Shown here one piece after another: positions 3,711-44,373 of a stretch of DNA of 61,263 bases. The stretch is from an uncultured Bizionia sp. Lineage in GTDB: Bacteria > Bacteroidota > Bacteroidia > Flavobacteriales > Flavobacteriaceae. The notes beneath the pieces were generated by a model that was not told where the DNA came from, did not search any database, and was given only the letters and a program-made list of their open reading frames with translations. Where the stretch lies: the NCBI GenBank assembly GCA_947496215.1, contig CANMCF010000027.1, positions 1 to 61,263 of the forward strand. The letters run 5' to 3'. Numbering within the stretch: position 1 is the first letter of the stretch; each line of letters begins with the position of its first letter. The position numbers and the translations under genes are program-made.

Positions 3711-3740
3711 TTTTTAATTGTAGGTTTTCATTAACCGCTA

Positions 3741-6033: not shown

Positions 6034-6076
6034 TATTGACTTTTAGTTAAATGCAAGTTAATCAATAGTAGGCAAT

Positions 6077-6145: not shown

Positions 6146-6182
6146 CAACTCAAATGATCACTAATCTTTAAAAGCAAATACC

Positions 6183-6461: not shown

Positions 6462-6484
6462 CCTAACTTTAAAACCGCGCTATT

Positions 6485-18769: not shown

Positions 18770-18770
18770 T

Positions 18771-19937: not shown

Positions 19938-19946
19938 TGGTCTGTA

Positions 19947-20276
19947 TTATAATTGAAACACTTTTTTCATCAATAGCCATTTCTCACCGGGCTTGGCGAT
20001 TGGCAATGCTTGTTGATAATTCCACATCAGCTTTTCCCAAGCTTCATTTTCTGGGTACTTTGCATCGATCGAAGCCTTTTTGTCAAAGGAAAAATCGTCA
20101 TCCACTTCCATAATCATGAACATGCGATTGCCCACTCTATGGATTTCCAAGTTTTTGATACCAGATTCTTTGATGCAGGCTATGATCTCTGGCCATACCT
20201 TGGTGTGGTGATCTTCATATTCTTTGATGCTTTTTTCGTCATCGATCAAATCCAATGCAAAACAATGTCTCTTCAT
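19947..20276 (-). CDS. L-rhamnose/L-fucose mutarotase family protein
   Basis: The 109-residue protein matches the RhaM-type mutarotase family: KRHCFALDLIDD at the start, YEDHHTKVWPEI with the conserved histidine pair (about 20-31), and NLEIHRVGNRMFMIMEV (about 42-58). It interconverts sugar anomers so that enzymes receive the form they use. Its place between the fucose transporter and the flavoenzyme gene indicates L-fucose as substrate. Confidence 0.85.
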   Translation of the reverse strand: MKRHCFALDLIDDEKSIKEYEDHHTKVWPEIIACIKESGIKNLEIHRVGNRMFMIMEVDDDFSFDKKASIDAKYPENEAWEKLMWNYQQALPIAKPGEKWLLMKKVFQL

Positions 20277-20286
20277 CTTGTTGGGT

Positions 20287-21603: not shown

Positions 21604-21627
21604 TTTAAATGATGTTGTTGATTAATA

Positions 21628-22416: not shown

Positions 22417-22428
22417 TTATACTTTTCT

Positions 22429-24528: not shown

Positions 24529-24530
24529 TT

Positions 24531-25943: not shown

Positions 25944-25980
25944 GAGTGATTTTTTTTTGACTAAAAAGAGTTTCATAGAC

Positions 25981-26919: not shown

Positions 26920-29313
26920 TTAATTTAATGCATTCAAGTTGCCATCTAACCAAACTTTTTGGTTTTTGGACAGTTCCAATTCTTTGGATAGTCCATTATA
27001 GTCCACTTTAGTAATATGATCTTCTTTTGCTAACAATCCAATTTTTATCGCCTGACCTTCTTCCCATTGTATATCCACCTCTATGTTTCCCCTTGCTTTC
27101 AACCCTGCGATTTTCCCATTTTCCCATTTTCCCGGCAATGCGGGCAATATTTGAATAGTCTCGGAATGTGATTGCAATAGCATTTCTGCCATTCCTGCCG
27201 TTGCTCCCATGTTTCCATCCAATTGAAAGGGCGGGTGCGTGGATAGGAGGTTGGGGTACACGCCACCACCTCCCATGGTGTTTTCTGCTCCAGTGGAGGT
27301 AATCTGCATGGCACGATTCAATAACTCATAAGCATGATTTCCATCTTTCAAACGTGCCCAGAAATTAATCTTCCAAGCGATGGACCAACCAGTCCCGTCA
27401 TCTCCTCTGGCTTTCAACGTTATTTGTGCAGCTTCCGAAAGCTTAGGAGTTTCCGTCGCATTTATTTGTCTTCCAGGATACAATGCATATAGATGTGAAA
27501 CGTGACGATGCTTATTATCTGGTGAGTCCCTATCTTCCTTCCACTCTTGCAGTTGCCCCCACTTGCCGATCTTAAGTGGTAACAATTGTGATTTCGCTAG
27601 AATTAACCTCTCTTTGAAGTCATTGTCCGTTCCCAATGCATCACAAGCAGCAATGCAGTTGGAGAACAAATCCCAAACAATTTGAATGTCCATATATGCA
27701 CCAGTGGAGATTCCTCCGTGTTCTGGAGAGTAAGATGGTGATGATACTAGGTGACCATCGGGGTCAGTTATCAGATAGTCCAACCAAAACAATGCTGCAT
27801 CCTTCATGATGGGGTAGCCCTTTTGCCTCAAGAAGTCCTCATCTCTATTAAATGCATAATGTTCCCAAACGTGCCTTGAATACCAGGCAGCTCCTCCTGG
27901 GAAGAATCCCCAAGGAAAGTCCCAACCTGGAGCAGTGTATCCAAATGTGTTGTTCATGGTGTTGACCACCCAACCCTTTGCATTGAAAAAGTCCTTGGCT
28001 GTCTTGTGTCCTGGTTCTCTTAACTTGTCTATGTAGTCTATCAAGGGTTCGTGGCATTCGGCCAAGTTGGTTATCTCCGTAGGCCAATAGATCATTTGTA
28101 TGTTTATGTTGGCATGGTAATCCGATGCCCATGGAGGATTTGTCTTGTCGTTCCATTTTCCTTGTAAATTTGCAGGGAGTGTTCCTTGCCGAGAGCTGGA
28201 GATCATTAAATAGCGCCCATATTGAAAGTACAAGGCTTCAAGGGGAAAATCTTCTTTTCCGGAAGAATAGACCTTTAAGCGGTGATCGGTAGGTAAATTG
28301 GTAGTGTCTGTTTCGCTTAGTTTGAATGTAACCCTATCATATAGATTCCTATAATCTTTTTTATGCTGTTTTAGAATCTCATCGAATGTCTTGGATTGGA
28401 CATTTGTTATTGTTTGTTCATTCAGTGCCTTGTAATCTCTTCCTTTGTAGGTAGGGTATTCGTTTTTGTAATCGGTTGCTGCGGTTAGATACAGGGTAAC
28501 TGTTTTGGCTGCCTTTATGGATAGTTCTCCATTTGCATAGGAAATGGAGCTTCCATCGGAATCGACCAGCATTCGACTTTCAAACGCCATCCCATTGTTC
28601 TCGAGTTGACCTTTCGATATGAGTTGATTGTCTTTGAAGTAAATCGTTGTGTTCTGATGTGGTGTTCTTTGTTTGATGACATAATCCGTACCAGATGCAT
28701 CATCATTTGTAAATTGAAAGACCAAGACACGTTGCGGATAGCTTGCAAAGTAGGTTCTTTGATAATTGACATTTGCTACCTTGTAGGAGATTGTTCCCAT
28801 TGCATCCGAAATGTTGAGTTTCCTATGATAGTTTTGCGCTTTTCCCTCATGTTTCGTTTTTATGAAAATATCCCCAAATGCCTGATATGCACCGAACCCT
28901 TCCCAAACGGAATGCCCTTTGTCAGCTTTTATGACTCCTGTTAGTTTCCTGTTGGCCAATTCATGGGCTTTTTCGAATTGTCCTTCTTTTAGTAGTTGTC
29001 TAATTTTGGGCAGGTATTGATGGGCATTTTCTCTGTTTCCGCCATTGTAGTCCTTCCATTCACCTTTTCCACCAGTCCATAAGGACTCTTCATTGAATTG
29101 GATGCGTTCTTCCTTTATTCCTCCAAAGAACATGGCTCCCATATATCCATTTCCGATTGGTAAAGCCTCTTTCATCCAATTGGTGGCCGGTTTATCATAC
29201 CAAAGCGAGTCTTTATTAATGACCTTTTCTTTTTTGCAAGCGACGATCACCAGCAAAACACACAATGCTTTAAAAGTATTCAAAGGGTTTGTATGTGTTT
29301 CAAACCAGCTCAT
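26920..29313 (-). CDS. GH95 alpha-L-fucosidase (lipoprotein)
   Basis: The 797-residue protein has a lipoprotein-type signal (VLLVIVACKKE, cysteine about 26) and the full GH95 layout. The N-terminal beta-sandwich begins LWYDKPATNWMKEALPIGNG, followed by FNEESLWTGG. An (alpha/alpha)6 barrel (about 330-700) contains NLQGKWNDKTNPPWASDYH and a C-terminal GGGGVYPNLLSTHPPFQLDG. GH95 enzymes invert configuration and mostly cut alpha-1,2-linked fucose. It complements the retaining GH29 enzymes. The start overlaps the lactonase gene end by 4 bases. Confidence 0.9.
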   Translation of the reverse strand: MSWFETHTNPLNTFKALCVLLVIVACKKEKVINKDSLWYDKPATNWMKEALPIGNGYMGAMFFGGIKEERIQFNEESLWTGGKGEWKDYNGGNRENAHQYLPKIRQLLKEGQFEKAHELANRKLTGVIKADKGHSVWEGFGAYQAFGDIFIKTKHEGKAQNYHRKLNISDAMGTISYKVANVNYQRTYFASYPQRVLVFQFTNDDASGTDYVIKQRTPHQNTTIYFKDNQLISKGQLENNGMAFESRMLVDSDGSSISYANGELSIKAAKTVTLYLTAATDYKNEYPTYKGRDYKALNEQTITNVQSKTFDEILKQHKKDYRNLYDRVTFKLSETDTTNLPTDHRLKVYSSGKEDFPLEALYFQYGRYLMISSSRQGTLPANLQGKWNDKTNPPWASDYHANINIQMIYWPTEITNLAECHEPLIDYIDKLREPGHKTAKDFFNAKGWVVNTMNNTFGYTAPGWDFPWGFFPGGAAWYSRHVWEHYAFNRDEDFLRQKGYPIMKDAALFWLDYLITDPDGHLVSSPSYSPEHGGISTGAYMDIQIVWDLFSNCIAACDALGTDNDFKERLILAKSQLLPLKIGKWGQLQEWKEDRDSPDNKHRHVSHLYALYPGRQINATETPKLSEAAQITLKARGDDGTGWSIAWKINFWARLKDGNHAYELLNRAMQITSTGAENTMGGGGVYPNLLSTHPPFQLDGNMGATAGMAEMLLQSHSETIQILPALPGKWENGKIAGLKARGNIEVDIQWEEGQAIKIGLLAKEDHITKVDYNGLSKELELSKNQKVWLDGNLNALN

Positions 29314-30134
29314 CTACTATAAAGTCGGATTGTATTTTTGCTCATTATTGCTGCTTTTTCATCTGGTGAGAAAGGCAGTATGTGATTTTTTACAATGTTT
29401 ATTTGTTCGTCATATTCCGCAGCCAACAAGCATACTGGCCAATCGGATCCATATAGGGTTCGATTAGTTCCAAAAGCTTTGAAAATAGTATCTAGATACG
29501 GTGTGAAATCAGATTGTTTCCAATGATTCCAATCGGCTTCGGTTACCATTCCTGAAATCTTGCAATGTACATTTTGGAATTTTGCTAGTGTTTCGATGTC
29601 ATTTCTCCAGTCTTTGAATTCTTTTGATGAGATGGCGGGTTTTCCCAAATGATCCATAACGAAAGGTTGATTTGGGAATTTTGAAACAAAGGCAATGACT
29701 TCGGGGAGTTGATGACGGTGTACCAATATGTCGTAGGTTAGATCATATTTTGACAATTGTTCTATTCCGTTTTGAAAATCTTTTCGTAGCATGAAGCCTT
29801 TAGGTTCAGCTTGGATGATATGACGTACTCCACAAAAAGTCTCAAATCGTGAAAAGCATTGCAGACTCTCATCGATTGTCTTGGAACATAAGTCCACCCA
29901 GCCTACCACGCCTTTTATGAAATTATTCTCCTTGGACAATTGCAACAAGAAGTGAGTTTCTTCTTCGGACTGATCTGCTTGTATGGAAATGCAACCATCA
30001 ACATTGTTTTTTTTGAATGTCGACTCTAGATGGGAAGGCAAGAAATCTTTGCGGATGCTTTCCATATCTTCCGTTATCCAGCGATCTCTTGCTGGATTGT
30101 ATTTCCAAAAATGTTGATGGCTGTCAATTATCAT
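29310..30134 (-). CDS. Amidohydrolase, probable L-fucono-1,5-lactonase
   Basis: The 274-residue protein is an amidohydrolase-2 family TIM barrel: the metal motif SHQHFWKY near the start (His6, His8), FVMDHLGKP (about 164-172) and YGSDWPVC (about 232-239) with the catalytic aspartate. Family members in fucose and rhamnose pathways open the lactone formed by sugar dehydrogenase to L-fuconate. It is coupled on both sides: 4-base overlap with GH95 and 1-base overlap with the FAH gene. Confidence 0.85.
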   Translation of the reverse strand: MIIDSHQHFWKYNPARDRWITEDMESIRKDFLPSHLESTFKKNNVDGCISIQADQSEEETHFLLQLSKENNFIKGVVGWVDLCSKTIDESLQCFSRFETFCGVRHIIQAEPKGFMLRKDFQNGIEQLSKYDLTYDILVHRHQLPEVIAFVSKFPNQPFVMDHLGKPAISSKEFKDWRNDIETLAKFQNVHCKISGMVTEADWNHWKQSDFTPYLDTIFKAFGTNRTLYGSDWPVCLLAAEYDEQINIVKNHILPFSPDEKAAIMSKNTIRLYSR

Positions 30135-30988
30135 TACATATATGCTTTGGCAGTTTGTGTTGAGGTTCCCAAACCATCGATGCCCAATTCCACTATGTCT
30201 CCTGGTTTTAAGTATTTGGGGGGATCGAAACCTAATCCAACCCCAAATGGTGTACCAGTAGAAATAACATCTCCAGGTAGCAAGGTCATGAATTGACTGA
30301 TGTAGCTTACTACTTCTTCCACATTGAAGATGAAATCGGAAGTGCTGCTATTTTGTACCGTCTCCCCATTTAACTTCAACCATAGGTTCAAGTTGTTTGG
30401 ATCTTTGATTTCGTCTCTGGTTGCAATGAATGGTCCCAAAGGAGCAAAAGTGTCACAACCTTTGCCTTTGCACCATTGTCCTTCCTTTTCTATTTGATAT
30501 GCTCTTTCACTATAATCGTTGTGTAATACGTAACCTGCTACATGATGCATTGCGTCTTCCTCCGAGACATAGGAGGCTTTTTTGCCAATGACTATGGCCA
30601 ACTCCACTTCCCAATCTGTTTTTTTACTTCCCTTAGGGATGATCAAGTCATCATTTGGGCCAACAATGGCACTGGTTGCCTTAAAAAACAAAACAGGTTC
30701 CTTGGGTACGGCCATACCGCTTTCTGCAGCGTGCTGTGCATAGTTTAGTCCTACGCAAACCATTTTCGATGGTCTGGTCATTGGTGGGCCCAATCGCTCA
30801 TTATCACTTATTTTTGGACACTTGTCTTCATTAGTTTCCAACCAATTTTTCAAGCGATCCAATCCATCCCCTCCAAAGAACGATTCCGTATAATCTTCAC
30901 CAAATCCTGATACATCTATTCTTGACCCATTCTCCAATTGTACTCCTGGCTTTTCTTTACCTACAGTTCCAAATCGTATTAATTTCAT
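30134..30988 (-). CDS. FAH-family hydrolase, probable 2,4-diketo-3-deoxy-L-fuconate hydrolase
   Basis: The 284-residue protein has the N-terminal DUF2437-type segment (MKLIRFGTVGKEKPGV) and the FAH domain with CVGLNYAQHAAESG and metal-binding acids in DWEVELAIVIG (about 118-128) and HNDYSERAYQ. It would split 2,4-diketo-3-deoxy-L-fuconate into pyruvate and L-lactate, the last step of the pathway in this operon. A fumarylacetoacetase or 5-carboxymethyl-2-hydroxymuconate role is unlikely given the neighbours. Confidence 0.85.
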   Translation of the reverse strand: MKLIRFGTVGKEKPGVQLENGSRIDVSGFGEDYTESFFGGDGLDRLKNWLETNEDKCPKISDNERLGPPMTRPSKMVCVGLNYAQHAAESGMAVPKEPVLFFKATSAIVGPNDDLIIPKGSKKTDWEVELAIVIGKKASYVSEEDAMHHVAGYVLHNDYSERAYQIEKEGQWCKGKGCDTFAPLGPFIATRDEIKDPNNLNLWLKLNGETVQNSSTSDFIFNVEEVVSYISQFMTLLPGDVISTGTPFGVGLGFDPPKYLKPGDIVELGIDGLGTSTQTAKAYM

Positions 30989-31023
30989 TTTTAATTCTTA
31001 TTTAAATATTAGTTGTTTCTTGA

Positions 31024-31791
31024 TTATCCGTTTAGTTTTATGAATCCACCATCTATTGGGAAATCCGTCCCTGTGATGAACGATGCTTCGTCCGAACATA
31101 AATATAGGGCTAAATTGGCCACTTCTTCAGGTTCTCCCATTCTTCCAATTGGTTGTGTTTTGGATAGACTTTCGAACATTTCCTTTTCTTTGCCAGGGTA
31201 ATTTTTGTTAATGAAACCATCAACGAATGGTGTGTGAATCCTTGCTGGGGAAATGCTATTGCAACGAATGCCATAATTCAAGTAGTCTTTTGCGACAGAG
31301 TAGGTCATCGTCAGCACTGCACCTTTGGACATGGAGTATGCAAATCGATTTGAGATGCCTACAGTCGATGCAATGGATGCCATGTTTAAAATGACACCGC
31401 CTTTTTCTTTCATTCTTCCTATAATGGCATACATGCAGTTATAGACCCCTTTTATGTTTACATTGAAGATGCGATCCATATCTGCTTCCTTCGTTTCTTC
31501 CAAATTGCCAATATGAGCAATGCCTGCGTTGTTTATTAAAATGTCTATTGTACCTTCTATGGAGGCAATTGCATTTTGGACTTCTTTTAGGTTGGCAATG
31601 TCGCATAGATGTGCTATTGCCTTACCTCCTTTGTTTTCGATTTCTTTCACAGTGATGTTGGCATTTTCTAGATCGCGTTCCAAAATATGTATCGTTGCAC
31701 CTTGTTCTGCCAATGTCAATGAGATTGCCTTGCCTATTCCGCTGCCTCCACCTGTTACAATTGTCTTTTTTCCGTTTAAACTAAATTTCAT
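31024..31791 (-). CDS. SDR oxidoreductase, probable 2-keto-3-deoxy-L-fuconate dehydrogenase
   Basis: The 255-residue protein has TGGGSGIGKAI (about 13-23), NNAG (about 87-90) and a complete active site with serine and YSMSK (about 152-156). The C-terminus carries TGTDFPIDGGFIK. It would oxidise 2-keto-3-deoxy-L-fuconate at C4 to the diketo acid used by the FAH hydrolase next door. Unlike the other SDR in this operon, its catalytic lysine is intact. Confidence 0.82.
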   Translation of the reverse strand: MKFSLNGKKTIVTGGGSGIGKAISLTLAEQGATIHILERDLENANITVKEIENKGGKAIAHLCDIANLKEVQNAIASIEGTIDILINNAGIAHIGNLEETKEADMDRIFNVNIKGVYNCMYAIIGRMKEKGGVILNMASIASTVGISNRFAYSMSKGAVLTMTYSVAKDYLNYGIRCNSISPARIHTPFVDGFINKNYPGKEKEMFESLSKTQPIGRMGEPEEVANLALYLCSDEASFITGTDFPIDGGFIKLNG

Positions 31792-31804
31792 TTCTTATTG
31801 GCTT

Positions 31805-33130
31805 TTATTCAATCCCTTTATGTATTTCTTGCCAAACCTTGCCATTTGGAAACTCGTAATCAATTAAAGAGCGCTCTTTCATCGTAATGCTGTATCCTGG
31901 TAGTTTTGGTGGTATATATGCTCCGTTTTTTATTGTGACTGGGTCGTGGAAATGTTCGTGCAAATGATCTACATATTCTATGATTCTATTTTCCATGGAT
32001 CCACTTATTGCAATGTAATCTATAAATGAGAGATGTTGTACATATTCACACAACCCGACACCTCCAGCGTGTGGGCAAACAGGAATTTTAAATTTTGCAG
32101 CCATCAATAAAATGGCCAAGACCTCGTTTACTCCACCGACTCTACAACTGTCTATCTGGCAAATACCAATGGCATTGGCTTGTAACAATTGCTTGAAGAC
32201 TACTCTATTTTGACAATGTTCACCTGTAGCGACTTTTATGGGGGCAATAGCCTTTGCTATCCTGGCATGACCAAGAACGTCATCTGGACTTGTGGGTTCT
32301 TCAATCCAATATGGGTTGAATCTTTTTAGGGATTCCATATTGAGGATGGCTTCATCCACATCCCATTTTTGATTGGCATCCATCATCAATTGCAGGTCGT
32401 TCCCAATTTCTTCACGAATAATGCCCGCTCTTCTCATATCGTCTTTTAGATCTGAACCTACCTTTATTTTCATATGCTTGAAACCTGCTGTTTTTGCCTC
32501 TTTGCATAAACGTCTCATTTTTTCATCGGAATAACCAAGCCAACCTGCAGATGTCGTATAGGCAGGGTATCCTTCTATCAAGAGTTTTTTTATTCTGTCT
32601 TTTTTCGAGGTTTCGTTTTTTTGTAGCAATGTCAAGGCTTCTTGTGGAGTGATGGCATCTGTGATATATGTGAAGTCTATGCATCTTACCAATTCATGCG
32701 AAGTCATATCTGCTAGTAACTTCCAAAGCGGCTTTTCCTCTACTTTGGCATATAGATCCCAAACGGCATTTACAATGGCTCCAGTTGCCAAATGAATGAC
32801 TCCCTTTTCTGGACCTAACCAACGCAACTGGCTATCTCCTGTAATCATTTTCCAAAAGGCTCCCATATCGGAAGTAAACTCGACTAGTTTTTTTCCAATG
32901 ATCAGGTGGGATAAGGATTTTATGGCAGCAACGCACAATTCGTTGCCTCTACCTATTGTAAAGGTCAATCCATGTCCCTCCATGCTATTTTGACAATTGG
33001 TTTTTAATATGACATAGGCCGCAGAGTAATCCGGATCTGTGTTCATGGCATCGGATCCGTCCAATGATTTGCTTGTGGGAAATCGAATGTCTTTAACCAG
33101 AATGTCGACAATGGTAATTGAATTAGGCAT
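31805..33130 (-). CDS. L-fuconate dehydratase (enolase superfamily)
   Basis: The 441-residue protein has the N-terminal capping domain with FPTSKSLDGSDAMNTDPDYS, typical for fuconate dehydratases. The barrel has the base KIKVGSD (KxK, about 221), metal ligands in MMDANQKWD, WIEEPTSPDD and GEHCQNR, and a late histidine-containing CPHAGGVGLCEY. It removes water from L-fuconate to give 2-keto-3-deoxy-L-fuconate. It is the first gene of the 13-gene minus-strand operon; a 122-bp gap precedes it. That gap holds minus-strand TAATTTTA, a possible -7 box. Confidence 0.9.
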   Translation of the reverse strand: MPNSITIVDILVKDIRFPTSKSLDGSDAMNTDPDYSAAYVILKTNCQNSMEGHGLTFTIGRGNELCVAAIKSLSHLIIGKKLVEFTSDMGAFWKMITGDSQLRWLGPEKGVIHLATGAIVNAVWDLYAKVEEKPLWKLLADMTSHELVRCIDFTYITDAITPQEALTLLQKNETSKKDRIKKLLIEGYPAYTTSAGWLGYSDEKMRRLCKEAKTAGFKHMKIKVGSDLKDDMRRAGIIREEIGNDLQLMMDANQKWDVDEAILNMESLKRFNPYWIEEPTSPDDVLGHARIAKAIAPIKVATGEHCQNRVVFKQLLQANAIGICQIDSCRVGGVNEVLAILLMAAKFKIPVCPHAGGVGLCEYVQHLSFIDYIAISGSMENRIIEYVDHLHEHFHDPVTIKNGAYIPPKLPGYSITMKERSLIDYEFPNGKVWQEIHKGIE

Positions 33131-33252
33131 TTGAAATTTAAGGTTTATCCTGTAAAATTAACTCTTGATGGGCTTAATTACCACCAATAATTATGCTATT
33201 TGTGATACTTTTTTTGCCTTTTTTATTGAGTTATTAGGTATTGTAGCTAATT

Positions 33253-34122
33253 TTATATGTGTTTTCGAAGATACTCTGTTGGAGAAAACCCAGTTATCGT
33301 TTTAAATTGCCTATTGAAATTTGAAACGTTGTTAAATCCGGATTCATAGCAAACGGCAGTTATGCTGTACTTGTTTTCCATTAGTAATTTACAGGCATAT
33401 CCTATTCTGATTTCATTCAAGTATTTTGAAAATGTCTTTCTATTGGCTCGTTTGAAAAAACGACTGAATGAAGAAGGATTCATATTCGCCACCTTCGCAA
33501 CATCATTTAAAGATATGGATTTATTGAAGTTGTTGAAAATGTATTCGTAAGGCTTGTAAAGGTTTTTGTTGTCAGATTTTTTGAATGTATCCAGAAACCC
33601 CGAACTCGATAGCAATCTATAATCTTTGCGATTGGACAGTTCGTTTAAAATTTGCAAGAACTCAATGACTTTTTTGAAACCATCGTAGGTTGACAATTCT
33701 TTGACCTTCTCAATGGTTCTCTCATTTTCTCCTTCAAACTTTACTCCGTAAGAAGCCCTTTCCAGCAAGTCGGCAATGTGCTTCATCTCTGGGTTTTGAA
33801 AAAAAGTATCACCCAAGAAGTTGTCTTTGAAGTGTATGGCGATAGCCTCGGCCTTCAATGTCGATGAAGTTTTGAAATACACATCGTCATTTTGCCACAT
33901 ATGGGGTAGATTCTTTCCGATCAGGACTATTTCCCCTTTATCAAACTTTTCAACGCTATCTCCAATGAATCGGGTTCCAGTACTTTCCAAAAGGATCACT
34001 AATTCCAACTCCATATGATAATGCCATATCTTTAAAAAATAAGGGTAGTTATCATAACTAATGGAGAAAGAGCTATTTTGCAGGTTACTCCTATTAAGAA
34101 GTTTTGGCTTCATTATGATCAA
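33253..34122 (-). CDS. AraC-family regulator of the fucose genes
   Basis: The 289-residue protein has an N-terminal cupin (about 10-130, with WHYHMELELVILLESTGTRFIGD and GKNLPHMW). A C-terminal pair of helix-turn-helix motifs follows (about 185-289), with DVAKVANMNPSSFSRFFKRA and AVCYESGFNNVSNFNRQFK. Such regulators sense a sugar in the cupin and activate nearby promoters. It lies 12 bp after the GH29 D gene and directly upstream of the catabolic operon, so a fucose-derived effector is likely. No clear AraC half-sites were found by eye. Confidence 0.85.
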   Translation of the reverse strand: MIIMKPKLLNRSNLQNSSFSISYDNYPYFLKIWHYHMELELVILLESTGTRFIGDSVEKFDKGEIVLIGKNLPHMWQNDDVYFKTSSTLKAEAIAIHFKDNFLGDTFFQNPEMKHIADLLERASYGVKFEGENERTIEKVKELSTYDGFKKVIEFLQILNELSNRKDYRLLSSSGFLDTFKKSDNKNLYKPYEYIFNNFNKSISLNDVAKVANMNPSSFSRFFKRANRKTFSKYLNEIRIGYACKLLMENKYSITAVCYESGFNNVSNFNRQFKTITGFSPTEYLRKHI

Positions 34123-34134
34123 ACGTTTGTCATG

Positions 34135-35613
34135 TTATTGTTCTACGGAGGATACTTTGAAAGTCCATACGTATTTTGATGGCGATTTCGTGCGCAATTT
34201 CTTAGGTACGAAAACCGTAAACCCTTTTTCGTTCTTTTTCCATTTCAAGTTCCTCTTAGACCCCAACAATTGGATTTTTGCATCTTTTGTTGGGTTTATC
34301 GAATTCACTGTAATTGTTGAAGGGATCGTATTCTCTCCTTCTTCTGCCATATAAAACAAAAATACGTTTCCATTTTTGTCTTGTGTCATACAAACATTGT
34401 TCTCTTTAAATGGCGCTATTGGTTTCGTATCATAGATTGCACTGTTGTTAACTGCCATCCAATCTTCAAATTCCTTCAAAAGATCGTATGCTCCTTGCTG
34501 CCATCTACCATCCGGGCCAGGCGCAATGTTGAGCAGCAGGTTGCCGCCTTTTGCCACGATGTCTACCAAGGTTTGAATGCCTTTTCTACCACTCATGTAT
34601 TTTGCATTGGGAGTCGAAGACCATCCGCCGCCGGATATGATGCAAGATTCCCAAGGATATGGCAATGTCTTTTCTGGAATTCTATTTTCTGGTGTCAGAT
34701 AATTTTGATTTTTACCGTATACAGCTCTATCCACGACAATCAAACCTGGTTGCTTCTCCCTAGCTTTTATAACCAATTCATCCATTCTTATGTCTTGGTT
34801 TACAATACGATGCTTCAAATAACCTCCTTCATTATTGTTCACGGTTTTCTTGTACCAATCCCTTATTTCTCCCTTGGGTGTTTTTGCGACCCAACCACCA
34901 TCAAGCCATAGGATGTCTACTTTTCCATAATCGGTCATCAATTCCATGATTTGGTTGTGTGTGAAGTCTATGAACTTGTTCCATTTTTCTGGATTTTCTT
35001 CGGGCGAGTAGTTTACATTCCTATCTTTTGGTGGGTAATAGGGATCCCAATAGTGTTCTGAGTGCCAATCGGGTTTGGAGAAATATGCGCCAGCCCATAG
35101 ACCTTCCTTTCTAAAGGATTCGAAAATCTCCTTGGTGATGTTCGACCTAGGATTCGATGAGAATGGCGTGCCGGAATCGGTGATTTTGTAATCTGTATAC
35201 TTGGAGTCGAACATTGTAAAACCGTCATGGTGCTTTGTTGTGAACACCACATATTTCATACCTGCTTTTTTAGCAGCTTCTGCCCATTTTTCGGGATTGA
35301 AATGACTGGGGTTAAAGGTATTCTTCAAGTTTTCATATTCTTTTTTGTAGGCAAAATAATCTTGAGGGTTCTTCCCTTTTTTCCTTTCACACCATTCATA
35401 CTCTTCGGGAGAAAGAGACCAAGATTCTACAATACCCCATTGACTGTATGCTCCCCAGTGCATCAACAGGCCAAATTTCTTGCCTTGCCATTCTTCTAGT
35501 TTTTCCAAAACCAATGGATCCGTTTCAGGAACATATCGTTCTTCTCCATGATGTTCTTGTGAATAACCAGTTAGTATGAATAGTATGAATATTGCTGATA
35601 AGGTCTTTTTCAT
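34135..35613 (-). CDS. GH29 alpha-L-fucosidase D (secreted)
   Basis: The 492-residue protein has a cleavable signal peptide (about 1-18, LTGYSQ), no lipobox. GH29 motifs: FGLLMHWGAYSQWGIVESW (about 48-66), TTKHHDGFTMFDSKY and the nucleophile in ILWLDGGWVAK (about 235). Several of its loops differ from the other three GH29 enzymes here, including a longer insert before WESCIISGGGW. It is the promoter-proximal gene of a two-gene unit with the AraC regulator. Confidence 0.9.
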   Translation of the reverse strand: MKKTLSAIFILFILTGYSQEHHGEERYVPETDPLVLEKLEEWQGKKFGLLMHWGAYSQWGIVESWSLSPEEYEWCERKKGKNPQDYFAYKKEYENLKNTFNPSHFNPEKWAEAAKKAGMKYVVFTTKHHDGFTMFDSKYTDYKITDSGTPFSSNPRSNITKEIFESFRKEGLWAGAYFSKPDWHSEHYWDPYYPPKDRNVNYSPEENPEKWNKFIDFTHNQIMELMTDYGKVDILWLDGGWVAKTPKGEIRDWYKKTVNNNEGGYLKHRIVNQDIRMDELVIKAREKQPGLIVVDRAVYGKNQNYLTPENRIPEKTLPYPWESCIISGGGWSSTPNAKYMSGRKGIQTLVDIVAKGGNLLLNIAPGPDGRWQQGAYDLLKEFEDWMAVNNSAIYDTKPIAPFKENNVCMTQDKNGNVFLFYMAEEGENTIPSTITVNSINPTKDAKIQLLGSKRNLKWKKNEKGFTVFVPKKLRTKSPSKYVWTFKVSSVEQ

Positions 35614-35847: not shown

Positions 35848-37536
35848 ATGAAAAGATTATTTAAATTTTTGCTGATGATTTCTCCAGTGGCTATTTTGGC
35901 TCAAAATGCTTCCAGTACATTCAAAGTTAGTTATGATCAATATAACAATGGTGAAAAAATAAATAACGAGTTGGTTATCTTCTATGAAGACGAAATGGTC
36001 TTTTTGTCTAAGCCGGAAGATAAGATCAAGCATTATACGGATTTGAGAAACAATCAAAATATAAGTATAATTGCATATGATGGGAAAGATTTCAAAAGCT
36101 TGACACCTTTTAATACTTTGCCAAAACCAAGTTTTGAAGAGAAAAAGGAAATAATTCTTGACTATGATTGTGAATATGCTTCTTTTTCATATTTTTCAAA
36201 TAAGATAGAAGTATGGTATACCAATGAAACGGAAGCCAAAGGATCCCCTTATAGCAGGTACCTTCCCGATGACAAGGCACTTGTTTTAAAGATAAGGGTT
36301 AATGGAAACCGTGAAATCATTGCCAACTCCATAGTCAAAGAGAACGATTATAGACCTTCCTCGGTCCTTATCGAAACAGCCGAAAAAGTCAGTAAAGCAG
36401 AATTTGAAGAGATTAAAATCAATTCCAGATACAAGAGATTGCAAGTCTTTGAAAATGATACGATAAATTTCGATCCCAATATCAAGGTGCCCGAAGAAAA
36501 AATTTTGATAGGATCTGAGACCTATCATTTTTCAAAGGGGTCTGTAATTATGAAAAGAGTTCCATTGTCATCGGAATTAAGTAATAGCGGCTATGTGTTT
36601 GCCAAGTTGAATTGCAAATCCAATGGAGATGCATATGATAGAACAGGGTCGGTTTTTATCGTGCCTGTCAAGGAAAAAGGTAAGTTGTCTGTTCTGGATG
36701 CCTATTTGAATGGTTTGGAAACACTACCGGAATTCATTGATAACAATGGACAGAAATATCAAGGAATAGTCAGGGAAAAGAATTACACACCTCCTACGGA
36801 AATTCTACGCTTCTATACGTCTTTTGGTGCCGACCATTTTAACGAGAAACGTGAGATAAACAACTACGATTGGGCAAACGATGTGACATACAAGCAAGAA
36901 GTGTCTGCTTTGATTCCTTCAGGTGTAGATGAAATCTGGGTTGGTGTCTTTGTTGGGAATTATGATTCTGGAGGTCATGTGGTTAGTTTGGAGTTGGATT
37001 TTTATCCTGCGTTCAACAAAGAAGAGACAAAAAGCACAAAATATATCGAGCCATTGTTTTCCACGGTTAACACATTGGAAATGTCAGGTCAAAACTATGG
37101 AAGACTTTTTAAGAATGATACTTTGAAAGTGGAATTCGATATACCAGAAAATGTAGAAAACCTTCAATTGCTATATACGACCACGGGCCATGGAGGTTGG
37201 GGAGGAGGAGATGAGTTTAATCCTAGGTTGAATAAATTGTATGTTGATGGAAAGGAAGTTTTTAAAATAGTTCCTTGGCGTACAGATTGTGCATCGTATC
37301 GATTATCCAATCCAGCTTCAGGTAATTTTGGTAATGGATTGTCTTCTAGTGATTTGAGTCGGTCCAATTGGTGTCCAGCCACATTGACACCTCCTTACAG
37401 CATTCCATTGTCTATGCTTGAAAAAGGCAAGCATACTCTCGAGGTCGTAATCGATCAAGGTGATGATGAAGGATCCAGTACAAATCATTGGAATGTGACT
37501 GGGGTTCTCATTGGTGATGAAAAGTCTAAGAAATAG
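35848..37536 (+). CDS. PNGase F-type peptide-N-glycosidase, secreted
   Basis: The 562-residue protein has a signal peptide (about 1-18, VAILAQ). An N-terminal region of about 240 residues resembles the extra bowl-like domain of type II PNGases. Two eight-stranded beta-sandwich parts like PNGase F of Elizabethkingia follow (about 260-395 and 400-558). Diagnostic stretches are TTGHGGWGGGDEFNP (E456), FKIVPWRTDCASYRLSNP and SRSNWCPATLTPP. PNGase F releases whole N-glycans from asparagine. Divergence from a fucosidase suggests that fucosylated glycoproteins are the food. Length exceeds that of the classical 314-residue mature enzyme because of the N-domain. Confidence 0.88.
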   Translation: MKRLFKFLLMISPVAILAQNASSTFKVSYDQYNNGEKINNELVIFYEDEMVFLSKPEDKIKHYTDLRNNQNISIIAYDGKDFKSLTPFNTLPKPSFEEKKEIILDYDCEYASFSYFSNKIEVWYTNETEAKGSPYSRYLPDDKALVLKIRVNGNREIIANSIVKENDYRPSSVLIETAEKVSKAEFEEIKINSRYKRLQVFENDTINFDPNIKVPEEKILIGSETYHFSKGSVIMKRVPLSSELSNSGYVFAKLNCKSNGDAYDRTGSVFIVPVKEKGKLSVLDAYLNGLETLPEFIDNNGQKYQGIVREKNYTPPTEILRFYTSFGADHFNEKREINNYDWANDVTYKQEVSALIPSGVDEIWVGVFVGNYDSGGHVVSLELDFYPAFNKEETKSTKYIEPLFSTVNTLEMSGQNYGRLFKNDTLKVEFDIPENVENLQLLYTTTGHGGWGGGDEFNPRLNKLYVDGKEVFKIVPWRTDCASYRLSNPASGNFGNGLSSSDLSRSNWCPATLTPPYSIPLSMLEKGKHTLEVVIDQGDDEGSSTNHWNVTGVLIGDEKSKK

Positions 37537-38259: not shown

Positions 38260-39588
38260 TTATTGGAAGTTTATGACCTGCCCTTCAAATACACGTTCGT
38301 ATTTCACAGAAGCGATCAATAAATCTTCAGCATCTAACAACTCTATGCGTCCACCTTTGTTTCCTAGTTGTATGGAGTGTTCGGAATTGTAAGATAGTAA
38401 AAATATCGATGAGCTGTTGGCTTCGATGTCACCATTGAGAAAGAACTTTCTACCCATGCGATCCCTAAGGTACCACTCGGTCAATGTGATTGTTTCATTG
38501 GTATTGTTTCTAATGGTAACGGATTCTTTGTTGTGATCTGGACCTGGCGGGTTGACCAGAGCGGATTCTATGGAGATTTCCCCATCATTTATCAAAGATC
38601 GACTTACATTCAACTCTATGACCGGTTGATCACCATTGACCAAATTTGAGTTGTCGTTACCTTCATACATGGGGAAGAACGATCTTACGTGGTTACCTCT
38701 ACTTCCATTCTGTTCTATGTTGCGATACATGACAAGACTATAGTTTCCTCCTGCCATTTGAACCGGCTTCCTGTCATTGGAAGAAAATAGTCCTTTTTTG
38801 CTTTGGTAATAGGCGACAGTTCCCAAGGCCATCTCGCATTCCGGACTGGAACCGACGAAGAAGCCGCCACGAGGCTTGAACAATTCGGCAATGATATCTC
38901 CGTTTATGTCCTTGTGATTCCACAACATCTGTAACGTCACGACATTTGGATTGTCTGGACCTTCATTGTTGTTCAGGCCATAGTTGTAACCCATGAAATT
39001 GACCCGTCCTGTGGATTCGTCCAAATGAAATTTAATCCAGTTGTGATATCCGGAAATTGTTCCCAAGGAAGAGGCTCCACCATGTTTTGGATTGTATTTT
39101 CCCTCTCCGACAAATACATGCTCAAAGCCGGAGGCATAATGCGTCGATCTTCCTTTGAACCAATTGGTGTACGTTCTAAACCAAATTTCGAACAATTCGG
39201 ATTCAAATTTGGATTCGATGTCTATGTTCAAATCGTTTTTCAAGTACTGGATGCAAGTCTTGATGACATTCGTGTCTTTTATTTTTGAAAGAAAGTCCAT
39301 TCCTTCTTGAATCTCATGGTCGGTCACCTCTTCTTCATATCTATAATTGACGAGGTAATTGTTCAACAGTGATATGTAACCCCTGTTTATGTCGGAATTC
39401 AACTTGGATCGGTTTACTTTTTCGAAAAGAGGGAATTGCGCCAAATCGATTTGGCGCTTTCCATTGGCCCTAACTTGTTCATCGAGCAATATGTCTGCTT
39501 TCGGATTCGCGTAATCTCCCGAGGAGGTCTTTCTGGATACTGAAAATCTGTTTTCATCGTTATCCCATAATTTCTTATAAATGCTCAT
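38260..39588 (-). CDS. EndoU (XendoU-like) endoribonuclease with lamin-tail-like C-terminus
   Basis: The 442-residue protein has no signal peptide or membrane helix. Residues about 30-305 match the eukaryote-type EndoU family. SGFEHVFVGE supplies E156, H157 and E162; YHNW supplies H182; and FKPRGGFFVGSSPECEMAL supplies a likely catalytic K238. In XendoU the corresponding two histidines and lysine cut RNA at uridines, leaving 2',3'-cyclic phosphate. Residues about 315-442 form a beta-rich domain with VTIRNNTNETITLTEWYL, like a lamin-tail domain. The gene starts 13 bp after the DyP-radical-enzyme fusion. A cytosolic RNase or a contact-delivered toxin are both possible. Confidence 0.82.
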   Translation of the reverse strand: MSIYKKLWDNDENRFSVSRKTSSGDYANPKADILLDEQVRANGKRQIDLAQFPLFEKVNRSKLNSDINRGYISLLNNYLVNYRYEEEVTDHEIQEGMDFLSKIKDTNVIKTCIQYLKNDLNIDIESKFESELFEIWFRTYTNWFKGRSTHYASGFEHVFVGEGKYNPKHGGASSLGTISGYHNWIKFHLDESTGRVNFMGYNYGLNNNEGPDNPNVVTLQMLWNHKDINGDIIAELFKPRGGFFVGSSPECEMALGTVAYYQSKKGLFSSNDRKPVQMAGGNYSLVMYRNIEQNGSRGNHVRSFFPMYEGNDNSNLVNGDQPVIELNVSRSLINDGEISIESALVNPPGPDHNKESVTIRNNTNETITLTEWYLRDRMGRKFFLNGDIEANSSSIFLLSYNSEHSIQLGNKGGRIELLDAEDLLIASVKYERVFEGQVINFQ

Positions 39589-39601: not shown

Positions 39602-42600
39602 TTAAAAGTATAGTGCGCGTTCGGTTTGATCTTTTTGTTGTTCGGGAGGAAGCGTTATGAAGAATGAGTTCCAACCTCCAACGCGACATTGCAGATGGCT
39701 GTATTTCTTTAAATCTTCGATGGGGCGTTCTCCAAAACGCACCTTTTGCCCAACATTGAAGGCTTCTCTTGTTTCCAGTGTTGAGAGTACACTAATGGTG
39801 AGGATATTTCCATTGGAGGCAATCCAGTTTTCCAATATCTTTACGAAAAAGCCTGTTTCTTGCTTTGTGCCATCCACTCTTATGTCAGTAACGACACCAC
39901 CTCCGAACCTGTCAAGCCTTTGCTTTTTTATGGATTCGAAAACCGCCTTCAGGCTGGATGTCGCCGTGCCGCTATATGGTGAGAAATTCGGAGATACGGG
40001 TTGGTTTGCCAATCTTCCGTCCGAAGAGGCATTGACTCCTTTCCCCATGGAGGAATATTGTCCGAAGGTACCACTGCCATAGGTGAAATGTAAATTGAAT
40101 CGCTCTCCCAACGATGTTTTGAGGGAAGGGCCGAAATAATTGGCCAATTGTCTTATTTTCCTTGCTTCTTCGTCATCTTCATCCGCCAAGTATCCTTTCT
40201 TCACCAGGGAGATTGAAGTCTCGCAAGCCGTTTGCCAGAAATCCATCAATGTGCTACAAATGGCATCAACCTCCTTATTGGCGTTTCCGAATTTTGGTGC
40301 ATTGAACAGGAAGTCTCTTCTCATGCGTTCAAACTTTGAAATTTGCTCTAAGTCATTTCCGGTTCCATCGGCATATTCAGGTCTTACCTTACCTTGTCCA
40401 TAATTTGCCTTTAGAGCTTCAAGAACCTCTTCGAGGGTATACTTCTCCTCTTCGAATACAAATTGTTTTATGGCCATTAATGAATTGGCCAGATTTGGAA
40501 CTGCAAAGGCTAGGAAACTACCAATGTTGTACTCTGCTCCACCTTCTGTCTGGTCTTTTCCGGATTCGATGCATCCATCCAGCAACAGTGACAATATTGG
40601 ACTTTTGCTGACTCCGGAAGGAAGAAGGAAGAAATTGGCGATGCTGAAGGCTACATTGTCAGCAAAAAACTGGATGTGGGTCTTTACATTGTCCAATAGC
40701 TGATCGAAACTTTTTATCTGTGAAACATGAGGTGTCCTGATGCTGTTTTTTATACCTCTTAAAAATTGACTGTCTTGACTGTATTTGCAACCTTCGTTGA
40801 GAGAACACTCTAGTACGGTCAACATGTTTATCATCCCGAAGGTAAAGGTGTTTTTGCCATTTAGGACCATTTCCCAACAGCCGGCATTGCAATAATCCAA
40901 GGCTTCTTCCTTTGGAATGTCGTTTTCGACAAGTCCATTGACTATTGTTTCATCATTGTATATGATCGGCAATCCGGCTTTGCTTGTCTTCAAAGTACTT
41001 TCGATGGCTTCCAAAACGGTTTTGGGTGTTTTGCCATGAATGCGAACATTTAGTGTCGGTGTGCAAAGGCCAGTGGCTCCGACTGCTTTTAAAAAGAGCA
41101 ATGTGGTTTTGTTGCAGGCATCTTCTCCTTCTTTGGTTTGGCCGCCAATGATGATGTTTTGGATAAAGTTGTTGCAGCTGGCAACTTGATCCAGATAGAT
41201 CGGTCTGGTCCCTATGCCTGTTCCATAGTTCAAAAAGTCCTGAGACAGTAGGTTGGCAGGGTTGTTGTTTAATCGCGAAGCACATTTCAAAAGAAAGCAC
41301 TCGACTAGTTCCAAGGCTTTTTCTTCGGTGATCTCATTATTGTCAAGATCGTTCTCAAGGTATTCATTAAGTACTTGATCGAGCCTACCCAGTGAATTGA
41401 AAACGGAGTCCACTGTTTGTGCCAAGTGTAGAAAATAGATGAATTGAAGTGCTTCATGAAAGGTTCTCGCAGGACTGGAAGGTATGCGTTTGCAGATGTC
41501 TATAATTTCTAGATAATCAGTCAGGTACGGCGTTTTCTTTCCTTCTTTTTCAATGTTGTCCACCAATTCCTGATATTTCGAGGCACAGGTCTCGGCATAG
41601 GTTACGATGGCCTCGCAAGAAATTATGATGGCCTCGAAAAGTTCCTTGTTGCTTGGATTGGTGCTTTCTCTCAATTCTTTGATGTATGGAGTCAGTCCTT
41701 TTTTCATCACTCTGGAAAAATTAGGAACCGTATGGCCAAAAACCGAAGAGGCATCTCGGTTGCAGAATGCGGAAGCCCTTGTTTCTTCTGGAGTCAAATA
41801 ATCAGGAAATCGTTTTCCAAGACCGACGGAACCCATGGGAAGCACTCCTGCAATCAATTCGCCATCCTCTATTTTGAATGTGTTTTTCGAAGTTACGAGT
41901 GTATTCATCATTTCCTTGAAGGCCAAAGCCCTTCGTATGATGATGCTTTCATTTTCACAGCCTTTGTGAATCTGAAAAATATTTGGGAGTTGATCGTCTT
42001 GGATCCAATCTGCTCTTCTATCTTCGAAAGCACGATCCAATATGCCATCTCTTAGATTTAATGTTCTTGCCGTCGATGGATTTCCGACTGGGTATCTTGA
42101 GTCTTCCATAGATGATGACAATGTCTTGAAAAAGGAGATTGACGGAGCAAACAAGTATTCTCCTCCTTTGAGTGTTACCAGTTTTTCCAAGCTGTATTCC
42201 GTTTTGGTGGTTCCGTCATTGAAATTGAAACGTCTGTTGTTGCCATTGCCAATTAAAGGATCTATTCCTGTGTGGGATGAAGGAAAGTCTTGATTGTTGG
42301 CAACTTTCTCTTGTACGTGTTCAAATTGATTTTCTATGCTATTCATAAACCCTATGAAAAGCAAGCCTACACCGCTGTCTGGCTTGTTGTCGTCGTCTTT
42401 GTGAATGTCATCGGTCCTGTCTCCATAGGACACGGAGCGCCTTAGTATCCTCCAATCTTTTTCTTCTCCGAATTTTCTGGGATTCACTTTTCTGCCATGG
42501 GCGTGGAAAGGACATTTGGATCCGGAAAAATCCTCATCGTAATTAAAATCGTTGGATGTTTCTATTTGGTTGTTCGCCAGTGCAGTACCATCTCTTCGCC

Positions 42601-43402
42601 ATCCAAATATGTGACTGGCTATGTCCTCTTTGTCGGTATTGACGTTTTTGGCAATTCTATTTATTTCCGAATAGAATGTTTTCACATGCTGTTCGTATTT
42701 TCTGTAAACGATGAAACTTCCATAGGCGTTTGGTATATTGGGATCCGAGGTCAATACCAGTTCTTTGGGTGCTGAAGCATCAAAATTCAAAGCTGGTCCA
42801 TTCTTTTCAATGTCCGAGGTCATGAAAAGAGGTTGGCTTTTGCCATCTTGAAACCCAAAATGACCTATGGCTACATCATCTTTGCTTTTTATGATGTTGC
42901 CGTGTTCAATGTGAATGGATTTTATGCTTTTAAAAGTTTCAATAAAACTGACGATATTGTTTGTATCCTCCTCCAAGTGTTCAATAGAATCATTGGATAT
43001 GGATACCAAGACATCCAGATCGTTTGCATAGGGTGCTTCGTAACCGGTAATGTCGTCTAATAACCCTTGTCTGTTTTTCATTCCCGTTTTGTAGGCCACA
43101 TCACCAGGTATTTTATCATTTGAAAATCCTAGTTTTCCATAACCGGATGCAGAGATATAGACATTGAAGATGGATAGGTTCCCATCGTTCAATCCGAGTT
43201 TGAAATTGGAACTCATTTCCAATTGTTCTTTAAATGACGTCAAGGGAAGTTTGCCTACCAACTTTTTGTTGACTTCAACATCATCTCCCAGTTCCAGGCA
43301 AATGAGTGTTTTGTTTACTCTTCCAATGCCTTTAAGGATATTTGCTTGGATGTTGTCGAACCATATTTCGTTTTCTGATAATCCTTTGTGTTTTGTTTTC
43401 AT
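39602..43402 (-). CDS. Fusion of DyP-type haem peroxidase and glycyl-radical enzyme
   Basis: One uninterrupted 1266-residue frame. Residues 1-430 are a DyP-type peroxidase: GFQDG (183-187, distal aspartate D186), CPFHAHGRKVNPR (297-309, probable proximal haem ligand H302), RRSVSYG (321-327) and LLFIGF...QFEHVQE. Residues about 480-1266 are a full-length glycyl-radical enzyme of the PFL/diol-dehydratase group: DGELIAG near the start, active-site CNAGCWE (C842, E844) and the radical loop CRVGGWNSFF (G1243) near the end. The loop has tryptophan where tyrosine is usual. There is no signal peptide. The start overlaps the FGE-like gene by 4 bases and EndoU follows after 13 bp. The substrate is unknown. 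No activating radical-SAM enzyme is in the window. Confidence 0.88.
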   Translation of the reverse strand: MKTKHKGLSENEIWFDNIQANILKGIGRVNKTLICLELGDDVEVNKKLVGKLPLTSFKEQLEMSSNFKLGLNDGNLSIFNVYISASGYGKLGFSNDKIPGDVAYKTGMKNRQGLLDDITGYEAPYANDLDVLVSISNDSIEHLEEDTNNIVSFIETFKSIKSIHIEHGNIIKSKDDVAIGHFGFQDGKSQPLFMTSDIEKNGPALNFDASAPKELVLTSDPNIPNAYGSFIVYRKYEQHVKTFYSEINRIAKNVNTDKEDIASHIFGWRRDGTALANNQIETSNDFNYDEDFSGSKCPFHAHGRKVNPRKFGEEKDWRILRRSVSYGDRTDDIHKDDDNKPDSGVGLLFIGFMNSIENQFEHVQEKVANNQDFPSSHTGIDPLIGNGNNRRFNFNDGTTKTEYSLEKLVTLKGGEYLFAPSISFFKTLSSSMEDSRYPVGNPSTARTLNLRDGILDRAFEDRRADWIQDDQLPNIFQIHKGCENESIIIRRALAFKEMMNTLVTSKNTFKIEDGELIAGVLPMGSVGLGKRFPDYLTPEETRASAFCNRDASSVFGHTVPNFSRVMKKGLTPYIKELRESTNPSNKELFEAIIISCEAIVTYAETCASKYQELVDNIEKEGKKTPYLTDYLEIIDICKRIPSSPARTFHEALQFIYFLHLAQTVDSVFNSLGRLDQVLNEYLENDLDNNEITEEKALELVECFLLKCASRLNNNPANLLSQDFLNYGTGIGTRPIYLDQVASCNNFIQNIIIGGQTKEGEDACNKTTLLFLKAVGATGLCTPTLNVRIHGKTPKTVLEAIESTLKTSKAGLPIIYNDETIVNGLVENDIPKEEALDYCNAGCWEMVLNGKNTFTFGMINMLTVLECSLNEGCKYSQDSQFLRGIKNSIRTPHVSQIKSFDQLLDNVKTHIQFFADNVAFSIANFFLLPSGVSKSPILSLLLDGCIESGKDQTEGGAEYNIGSFLAFAVPNLANSLMAIKQFVFEEEKYTLEEVLEALKANYGQGKVRPEYADGTGNDLEQISKFERMRRDFLFNAPKFGNANKEVDAICSTLMDFWQTACETSISLVKKGYLADEDDEEARKIRQLANYFGPSLKTSLGERFNLHFTYGSGTFGQYSSMGKGVNASSDGRLANQPVSPNFSPYSGTATSSLKAVFESIKKQRLDRFGGGVVTDIRVDGTKQETGFFVKILENWIASNGNILTISVLSTLETREAFNVGQKVRFGERPIEDLKKYSHLQCRVGGWNSFFITLPPEQQKDQTERALYF

Positions 43403-44373
43403 CTTTTAGTCCTTTTAATTCTGAAACCTACGTTTATCGCTGAGGTGTATTTTAATTGGCTTGTGGTGATGGATTCCTTGTTTAAAGGAAGTTTTCGTCG
43501 TTTGCTAACCCTTAGGAATGGCATTTCCCAATCGAAGCCCCCGCCTCTAATTACTTTCTCTTGTATTGGAGCGTTGCTTTTGTGTTCTGGGTTTACAGAG
43601 TCGTCAATTGTGTAGGGAGCGTAAGTGTCCGAAACCCATTCCCACACATTTCCTGTCATATCATATAGACCAAAAGGGTTTGCATTGAACGATCCTACGG
43701 GAGACAACAAGGCGTGACGGTCTTCATATTCCAACAGTACAGGGTATTTCCATTTTGGGAATCGTTCTTTGAATGTTGCATCCGCAATGTTTCCCCCATT
43801 CATCGCATTAGGGATGTCGTTACCCCAAGCATATTTGTTTTTACCGGAAAAACCTGCGGCATATTCCCACTCGGCTTCAGTAGGAAGTGCATAATCGTAT
43901 TTGGAATCAATGCTGTTGAGCCATCTGCAAAATGCATTGGCGTCATTCCAAGAAACGTGCACTACCGGGGTGTCGTCCTTTTGTTCGAAACCAAGGTTTT
44001 TCCAAATGAGTGTTTTGTCAAACCCCCAAGTATTGGTACTATCGTTGTACTTGCCATAAGAGCCGGTACCATCTACTTCAGCCTCTGTCTCATAGTCTGT
44101 ATTTTCGACAAAGACCTTGAACTGCCTATTGGTTATTTCAAATTTTGACAATTCAAAATCAGAAGTAAAGGAAACAGGATGCATCGGGGATTCGTCCTTA
44201 TACCATTCAGGATGCTGTTCTGGCGGTATTGATAGGTAGTAGTCGCTTCCAATTATGAATTCACCTTTCGGAATGGTTGAAAACTCCAAATCCAACAATT
44301 GCATTTGTTTTTTGTTTACATCGTTGGCGCATGAACATAGAATGATTAAAAGTAGTGTGACAAGTGTTTTCAT
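43399..44373 (-). CDS. FGE/SUMF1-like lipoprotein lacking the catalytic cysteines
   Basis: The 324-residue protein has a lipoprotein signal (LLLIILCSCAND). An FGE-sulfatase/SUMF1 fold follows: IPKGEFIIGSDYY, FEITNRQFKVFVENTDY, LPTEAEWEYAA (about 160-170), NPFGLYDMTGNVWEWVSDTY and GFRIKR at the end. True formylglycine-generating enzymes carry two cysteines in RGGSFxCxxxxC. Here the segment is RGGGFDWEMPFLRV, with neither. So it is not a canonical sulfatase-activating enzyme; SUMF1-like proteins without those cysteines serve other roles. It is the first gene of the operon and, as a lipoprotein, is exported while the next two products appear cytosolic. Confidence 0.82.
   Translation of the reverse strand: MKTLVTLLLIILCSCANDVNKKQMQLLDLEFSTIPKGEFIIGSDYYLSIPPEQHPEWYKDESPMHPVSFTSDFELSKFEITNRQFKVFVENTDYETEAEVDGTGSYGKYNDSTNTWGFDKTLIWKNLGFEQKDDTPVVHVSWNDANAFCRWLNSIDSKYDYALPTEAEWEYAAGFSGKNKYAWGNDIPNAMNGGNIADATFKERFPKWKYPVLLEYEDRHALLSPVGSFNANPFGLYDMTGNVWEWVSDTYAPYTIDDSVNPEHKSNAPIQEKVIRGGGFDWEMPFLRVSKRRKLPLNKESITTSQLKYTSAINVGFRIKRTKR

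Follow-up and report, generated by a model that had tools for sequence, protein, structure and literature searches.

Glycyl-radical enzymes (GREs) are described as oxygen-sensitive and as dependent on a radical S-adenosylmethionine (SAM) activase for their glycyl radical (PMC6181972, PMC6453916, PMC12222630). A fused DyP-PFL gene, joining a DyP haem peroxidase to a pyruvate formate-lyase (PFL), was reported in Chaetomium cochliodes in BMC Genomics in 2016; that paper called its significance elusive, placed the fusion in other distant genomes as well by citing a 2014 encyclopaedia chapter, and gave an induction of 3-fold with H2O2 and 18.5-fold with peroxyacetic acid (PMC5041501). Here we analyse a gene of the same build in an uncultured Bizionia sp. 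(contig CANMCF010000027.1 of assembly GCA_947496215.1), the whole stretch of 61,263 nucleotides being referred to as the window. Like the Chaetomium protein, its product has an N-terminal DyP and a C-terminal PFL/glycyl-radical region in one chain, but the Chaetomium DyP was assigned to type B (PMC5041501), whereas the window's is, by its best matches among solved structures, Alr1585/DyP2-like and not type B. Since it was called type B and was given bacterial fused relatives, the Chaetomium fusion is probably nearer to the proteobacterial fusions considered below. The initial annotation of the window, made from the sequence alone, had stated that no protein of this composition was described, which the Chaetomium fusion contradicts. 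Besides PMC5041501, our literature search, with subscription journals mostly outside its reach, found no paper on a DyP-PFL fusion and nothing on replacement of a GRE activase, and the accessible parts of PMC3413370 and PMC13185644 hold nothing on the fusion. The architecture was already known, and it is the comparative pattern of activase loss that appears to be new.

By sequence, the window's gene is a fusion with both catalytic sets conserved and no recognisable activase in its genome, and it belongs to a set of fusions in which two DyP classes are joined to GREs. We consider the chances about even that the DyP domain has replaced the radical-SAM activase in a GRE of the 'GGW' clade, and that it makes the thiyl/glycyl radical with peroxide. 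More tentatively, and a little short of even, we propose a peroxide-driven, SAM-independent radical GRE, in which aerobes would at least twice independently have swapped the activase for a fused haem peroxidase, allowing GRE chemistry in oxygen. The gene and its parts are as follows.

39602..43402, minus strand: DyP peroxidase/GRE fusion gene, 1266 aa
42113..43402, minus strand: DyP half, residues 1-430; nearest entry in the Protein Data Bank Alr1585, with DyP2 matched too
42845..42847, minus strand: D186 in FGFQDG, distal acid of the DyP by motif
42497..42499, minus strand: H302 in HAHGRK, candidate proximal haem ligand by motif
42440..42442, minus strand: R321 in ILRRSVSYG, candidate distal Arg by motif
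39605..42112, minus strand: GRE half including its N-terminal part, residues 431-1266
40871..40879, minus strand: C842-W843-E844, catalytic Cys-x-Glu motif (GCWE); Cys and Glu invariant in 12/12 fused GRE halves
39674..39676, minus strand: G1243 in RVGGW, glycyl-radical site; invariant in 12/12 fused GRE halves

The open reading frame at 39602-43402 is unbroken from ATG to stop over its 1266 codons, and the plus strand has 45 stops in the same frame. Pfam placed a PFL-like domain at residues 551-1060 (E 2.5e-114), and the GRE half scored 383.7 bits with PF02901 against a curated cut-off of 24.3. The other half was recognised as a DyP by Dyp_perox_C (PF20628) at residues 215-369 (E 1.3e-7, 32 bits with a cut-off of 20), and two further profiles fell slightly below their cut-offs, namely DyP_N (PF21105) at residues 17-169 (E 1.3e-5, 25.9 vs 27.5) and TIGR01413 (99 vs 100.5). 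With phmmer, residues 15-428 aligned with Alr1585 (5c2i, E 1.2e-65), and the protein from about residue 536 onward aligned with GREs of known structure. The top-scoring solved DyPs for residues 12-428 were Alr1585 (AnaPX, 5c2i) and DyP2 (4g2c), both of which are stand-alone peroxidases. By motif, the protein has the candidate proximal His (H302) and the distal Asp and candidate distal Arg (D186, R321) of a DyP, and it has the catalytic Cys and Glu (C842/E844) and the glycyl-radical motif (RVGG1243W) of a GRE. It scored 258 against a cut-off of 678 for the PFL2-3 subfamily (TIGR01774), and at most 212 bits against cut-offs of at least 994 for the named GRE equivalogs (choline lyase, HypD and others).

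The initial annotation's observation of one frame joining a DyP (D186, H302) to a complete GRE (C842, E844, G1243) is confirmed, the gene lying on the minus strand. It had also asked whether the two genes are separate in relatives, the junction here being a frameshift or misassembly; instead, Chryseobacterium defluvii has the same DyP-GRE order, as do Proteobacteria with a DyP of another class. An assembly artefact or frameshift is ruled out, as the fusion is present in 11 genomes, the window's included, and on one plasmid.

The closest relatives of the GRE half are stand-alone GREs of the GGW clade (L065-L084, L086-L091, L097 and L101; L numbers are loci and G numbers genomes), which, where the motifs were inspected, share with it Cys-x-Glu and R[VI]GGW, with RAGGW in L080 and L081. 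Unlike the fusions, they have no DyP and an adjacent activase, which is not visible in L074. Choline trimethylamine-lyase, B12-independent glycerol/diol dehydratase and other PFL2-type GREs belong to the same family and have Cys-x-Glu as well. The glycyl motif of other PFL2-type GREs is (S/A)G(Y/W), and it is SGW in the loci L106, L108, L111 and L112, in contrast to GGW in the window's clade.

When 395 genomes of the window's phylum were searched with a profile, four clade members scored 432-1243 bits and the next GRE only 218, and among 395 genomes of its order the family was carried by the window's genome and one other only. A five-row GRE alignment, used as the pattern for scanning a species-genome collection of 84,980 species, picked up 61 loci. 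The fusion of C. defluvii has 1304 aa and matches the window's at 48% over the GRE; an Andreprevotia homologue has 1167 aa. Plasmid searches yielded, among the matches listed (40 of 112; 60 of 122), one intact fusion, on an Asticcacaulis plasmid, and a Hymenobacter plasmid on which the order of GRE and DyP is reversed and the two occupy separate, interrupted frames; viral contigs gave no match. On the Hymenobacter plasmid (L022 7986-13689) a GRE in two overlapping frames is followed by a multi-frame DyP and then by a PLD-like gene, a relative of which also lies near the GRE in the Geobacter-type loci L069 and L087. A sample of 300 genomes from the order to which Paracidovorax anthurii belongs contained one more fusion (G1010) besides the query's own and one broken copy (G1040). 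The latter, on C9, is a short class-B fusion with two stops in one piece and otherwise in separate pieces, and its genome has an activase. In the same sample, L164 holds a different type of GRE at 3506-6550, a 1014-aa frame that has the ordinary motif RVAGY and is followed downstream by an activase gene.

In total, 12 fused loci were compared (the window, L021, L085, L094, L095, L096, L098, L099, L100, L102, L115 and L163, the flanks of L096 and L163 being shorter than those of the others), together with 11 fused genomes (G000, G369, G487-G494 and G1010, the hit coordinates for G369 being those of G486, Chryseobacterium). Besides the window's genome, the hosts are Chryseobacterium, which is of the same order as the window's, Azohydromonas, Paracidovorax, Pseudomonas, Massilia, Collimonas, Asticcacaulis and Andreprevotia. 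Unfused members of the clade occur in Bacteroidales, Lachnospiraceae, Geobacteraceae, Fibrobacter, Chlorobiaceae and others. We take these unfused hosts to be anaerobes and most of the fused hosts to be aerobes. The proteins of L096 (1544-5050) and L099 (6939-10499) are 94% identical over the DyP and 96% over the GRE although their hosts, P. anthurii and Pseudomonas cichorii, belong to different families, which suggests recent horizontal transfer.

Of the clade's 29 unfused loci from the species-genome scan (L065-L084, L086-L091, L097, L101 and L103), 27 have an activase gene adjoining the GRE. The two exceptions are L074, whose contig starts at or inside the GRE, and L103, where the GRE is a fragment, broken and partly inverted, at the end of a contig. 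In comparison, no activase was found near the fusion in any of the 12 fused loci, the window being covered via whole-genome searches and the other loci via their flanks. DyP matches at the scanned loci were confined to the fused loci and the Hymenobacter plasmid, where 18.5 kb around the DyP and the interrupted GRE gave no activase match; for Asticcacaulis and Hymenobacter the searches covered plasmid stretches. Both counts are exclusive of the distant loci L092-L093, L104-L114 and L116-L125, several of which showed no activase by simple BLAST.

Genome-wide searches gave the same picture. With TIGR02494, 9 of the 11 fused genomes had no activase candidate and nothing above 40.4 bits, a match that reads as MoaA. 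The best match in the window's genome, which is 99.96% complete, was 40 bits and is MoaA by sequence and neighbour, so that no cognate radical-SAM activase was recognised there; the best in Chryseobacterium was 26 bits, RlmN by reading. TIGR02493, run on G000 and G369, agreed in finding no GRE activase. A 13-row profile built from activases of the clade itself, run on all fused genomes but G1010, found nothing above 33.3 bits in 8 of the 9 activase-less genomes, and PF13353 found nothing above 44 bits in the nine, two controls giving NrdG-sized matches of 147 and 183 bits. According to PF02901, the fusion is the sole PFL-like GRE in these nine genomes. Each of the other two, both Andreprevotia, has a single PflA-like gene, whose main piece scored 127-128 bits, below the curated cut-off of TIGR02494 like some other PflA-type genes in our data; each also has a second, classical PFL on the activase's contig, about 0.7 and 1.1 kb from the activase. 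As a baseline, 46 of 47 other, unfused GRE-bearing Bacteroidota genomes had an activase at E<=1e-20, 40 of the 47 above the curated cut-off, and in the sole miss (G402) the GRE frame is only 428 aa long. No p-value is attached to this contrast because the fused genomes are related in groups. That the activase is simply too divergent for the search is made less probable by this baseline, by 5/5 clade controls and by 7/7 unfused GRE genomes that scored, two of these only below the cut-off. G950, at first sight an activase-less GRE genome, was left out of the counts since its contig stops right after the GRE.

The initial annotation had suggested either that the peroxidase protects the radical or that it makes or feeds it. 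In the form considered here, the first makes the DyP half a guard that clears peroxide near the glycyl radical, the activase being unrelated, unrecognised or supplied from elsewhere. Such a role fits the induction of the Chaetomium gene by peroxide and the putative activase of that fungus (PMC5041501), and also the PflA-like activase in both Andreprevotia genomes, but in each of the latter another PFL is no more than about 1.2 kb away from the activase. A guard of an activase-made radical agrees poorly with an activase in 46 of 47 baseline genomes against none seen in 9 of 11 fused ones, and leaves the absence in both fused clades unexplained; we therefore regard it as unlikely. Loss of the activase together with repeated fusion favours the second suggestion, a DyP half that generates or feeds the radical, although radical formation itself is our reading of the sequences. 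By this pattern the GRE half, if it is a radical enzyme, must be run by something other than a recognisable radical-SAM activase, and both clades that lack the activase have a DyP domain instead.

The fused proteins fall into two clades with roughly 25% identity between them. The DyP halves of the window and of Chryseobacterium best matched Alr1585 and DyP2, while those of the proteobacterial L094 and L021 best matched type-B and related DyPs (DypB-like), and the L094 DyP half showed no detectable overall similarity to the window's (23 bits). The GRE trees placed the pair of window and Chryseobacterium next to the activase-linked clade as its sister, with the class-B fusions and Hymenobacter branching outside both of these. 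A single fused clade was rejected by the approximately unbiased (AU) test on a tree of 35 rows with 10 of the 12 fused ones (L096 and L098 omitted) and 14 unfused clade rows (log-likelihood difference 126.5, p-AU 2.2e-47). The tested group was defined by architecture, and the first tree, which omitted L074, L086, L087 and L103, was already known before the test; in these trees long branches meet near the outgroup and the letter make-up is uneven, the window's row included. Different DyP classes and a GRE tree that rejects one fused clade indicate that the fusions probably arose at least twice. A generic GRE that carries a DyP by chance was rejected as a description of the fusion, as its GRE belongs to a clade distinct from the generic GREs that were included.

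Among the 836 columns of the 12 fused GRE halves, 87 are invariant, including C842, E844, R1240, G1242 and G1243. In the DyP half, the proximal His and distal Arg motifs are present in 12/12, and the distal acid is Asp in nine and Glu in three. For six overlapping pairs of class-B fusions, the ratio of nonsynonymous to synonymous substitution rates (dN/dS) was 0.11-0.31 in the DyP and 0.08-0.24 in the GRE, dS being saturated (1.6 or more) for L021/L115, and the GRE half had the lower value in 5 of 6 pairs. These data bear on a second alternative, in which the GRE half has ceased to be a radical enzyme and its barrel binds a substrate or polymer for oxidation by the DyP half. Such a role would account for the missing activase and for hosts that are mostly aerobes, where a glycyl radical would be cut. 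We nevertheless think it improbable, as C842, E844, R1240, G1242 and G1243 are kept in all 12 halves whereas 749 of 836 columns vary, and as dN/dS in the class-B pairs is mostly below that of the DyP half.

On the simplest reading of the pattern, with the DyP half as the radical generator, H2O2 would convert its haem to compound I, and the oxidising equivalent would travel via aromatic residues of the protein into the GRE half, where the C842 thiyl radical would be made directly or via G1243. C842 and E844 would then carry out ordinary GRE chemistry, probably of the eliminase type given the Cys-x-Glu motif. In aerobes this DyP route would stand in for anaerobic, SAM-dependent activation. Class I and class III ribonucleotide reductases use the same thiyl chemistry with an oxygen-dependent radical generator in the former and a SAM-dependent one, which makes a glycyl radical, in the latter. 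They offer a precedent for a swapped radical generator, by analogy only and with no homology to the DyP-GRE claimed. If true, replacement of the activase by the DyP would mean a second route to the glycyl radical and GRE chemistry extended to oxic habitats, and it would give a concrete, testable function to a fusion in print since 2016 (by citation 2014).

Several points weigh against replacement. Glycyl radicals are normally cut by O2, so that an aerobic glycyl radical needs explaining. No Tyr/Trp column exclusive to the fused GREs was found; columns that are Tyr/Trp in both fused clades are mostly aromatic in the activase-linked clade too, and the nearest to a fused-specific aromatic path are columns 815 and 1001, Tyr/Trp in most fused proteins, Leu/Ile and mostly Phe in the activase-linked clade, yet aromatic in outgroup GREs. 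The distal acid is Glu in three fused DyP halves, and the dN/dS pairs, being class-B fusions, leave out the window's own clade. Completeness is known for G000 and G369 only among the 11 fused genomes, which may have an activase of an unrelated, unrecognised type. A putative PFL activase was reported in C. cochliodes (PMC5041501), in contrast to the window's genome. Finally, the tree allows one ancestral fusion with later return of the activase and a swap of the DyP, which needs more changes.

The fusion is flanked by two genes on the same strand, and a similar pair was seen at three other fusions.

43399..44373, minus strand: FGE/SUMF1-like gene with a lipoprotein-like start (by reading), upstream, overlapping the fusion start by 4 nt (ATGA)
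38260..39588, minus strand: XendoU-like endoribonuclease with a lamin-tail-like domain (LTD, slightly below cut-off), 13 nt downstream of the fusion
L085, 3891-5965: FGE-like and nuclease-like neighbours
L021, 4242-6329: FGE-like and nuclease-like neighbours
L115, 4196-6260: FGE-like and nuclease-like neighbours

Given the 4-nt overlap and the 13-nt gap, the FGE-like gene, the fusion and the XendoU gene look like one operon. The FGE-like family also adjoins the fusion in L085, L115 and L021, while XendoU recurs at L085 and a DUF2278 protein with an LTD-like part is found at L021 and, by BLAST, at L115. An FGE-like gene with XendoU or DUF2278 thus stands next to four fusions spanning both DyP classes, the nuclease-like partner varying. 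These partly common neighbours would suit an arrangement in which the two halves catalyse successive steps of one pathway and were fused for channelling, activation being incidental, but fusion of the same GRE clade to two DyP classes, and the few neighbours that the short class-B fusions have in common, make this very improbable.

PADLOC gave no match among the three operon proteins. The FGE-like proteins of the window, L085 and L115 have RGGGFDWE in common, and the Cys pair of true FGE was not seen in these three. On the opposite strand, a gene at 35848-37536 (plus) adjoins the operon and encodes a PNGase F-like protein, in which an N-terminal domain of the PNGase F-II type accompanies the N-glycanase N and C domains. 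Ten window proteins were scanned, and a fucose-degradation cluster lies at 17432-35613 on the minus strand, with four alpha-L-fucosidase (PF01120) genes, a GH95 enzyme and an enolase-superfamily gene. The window's genome also has a second, stand-alone DyP (G000 C2:348487-349167, a 479-aa frame), and similar ones are present in the two congeners searched.

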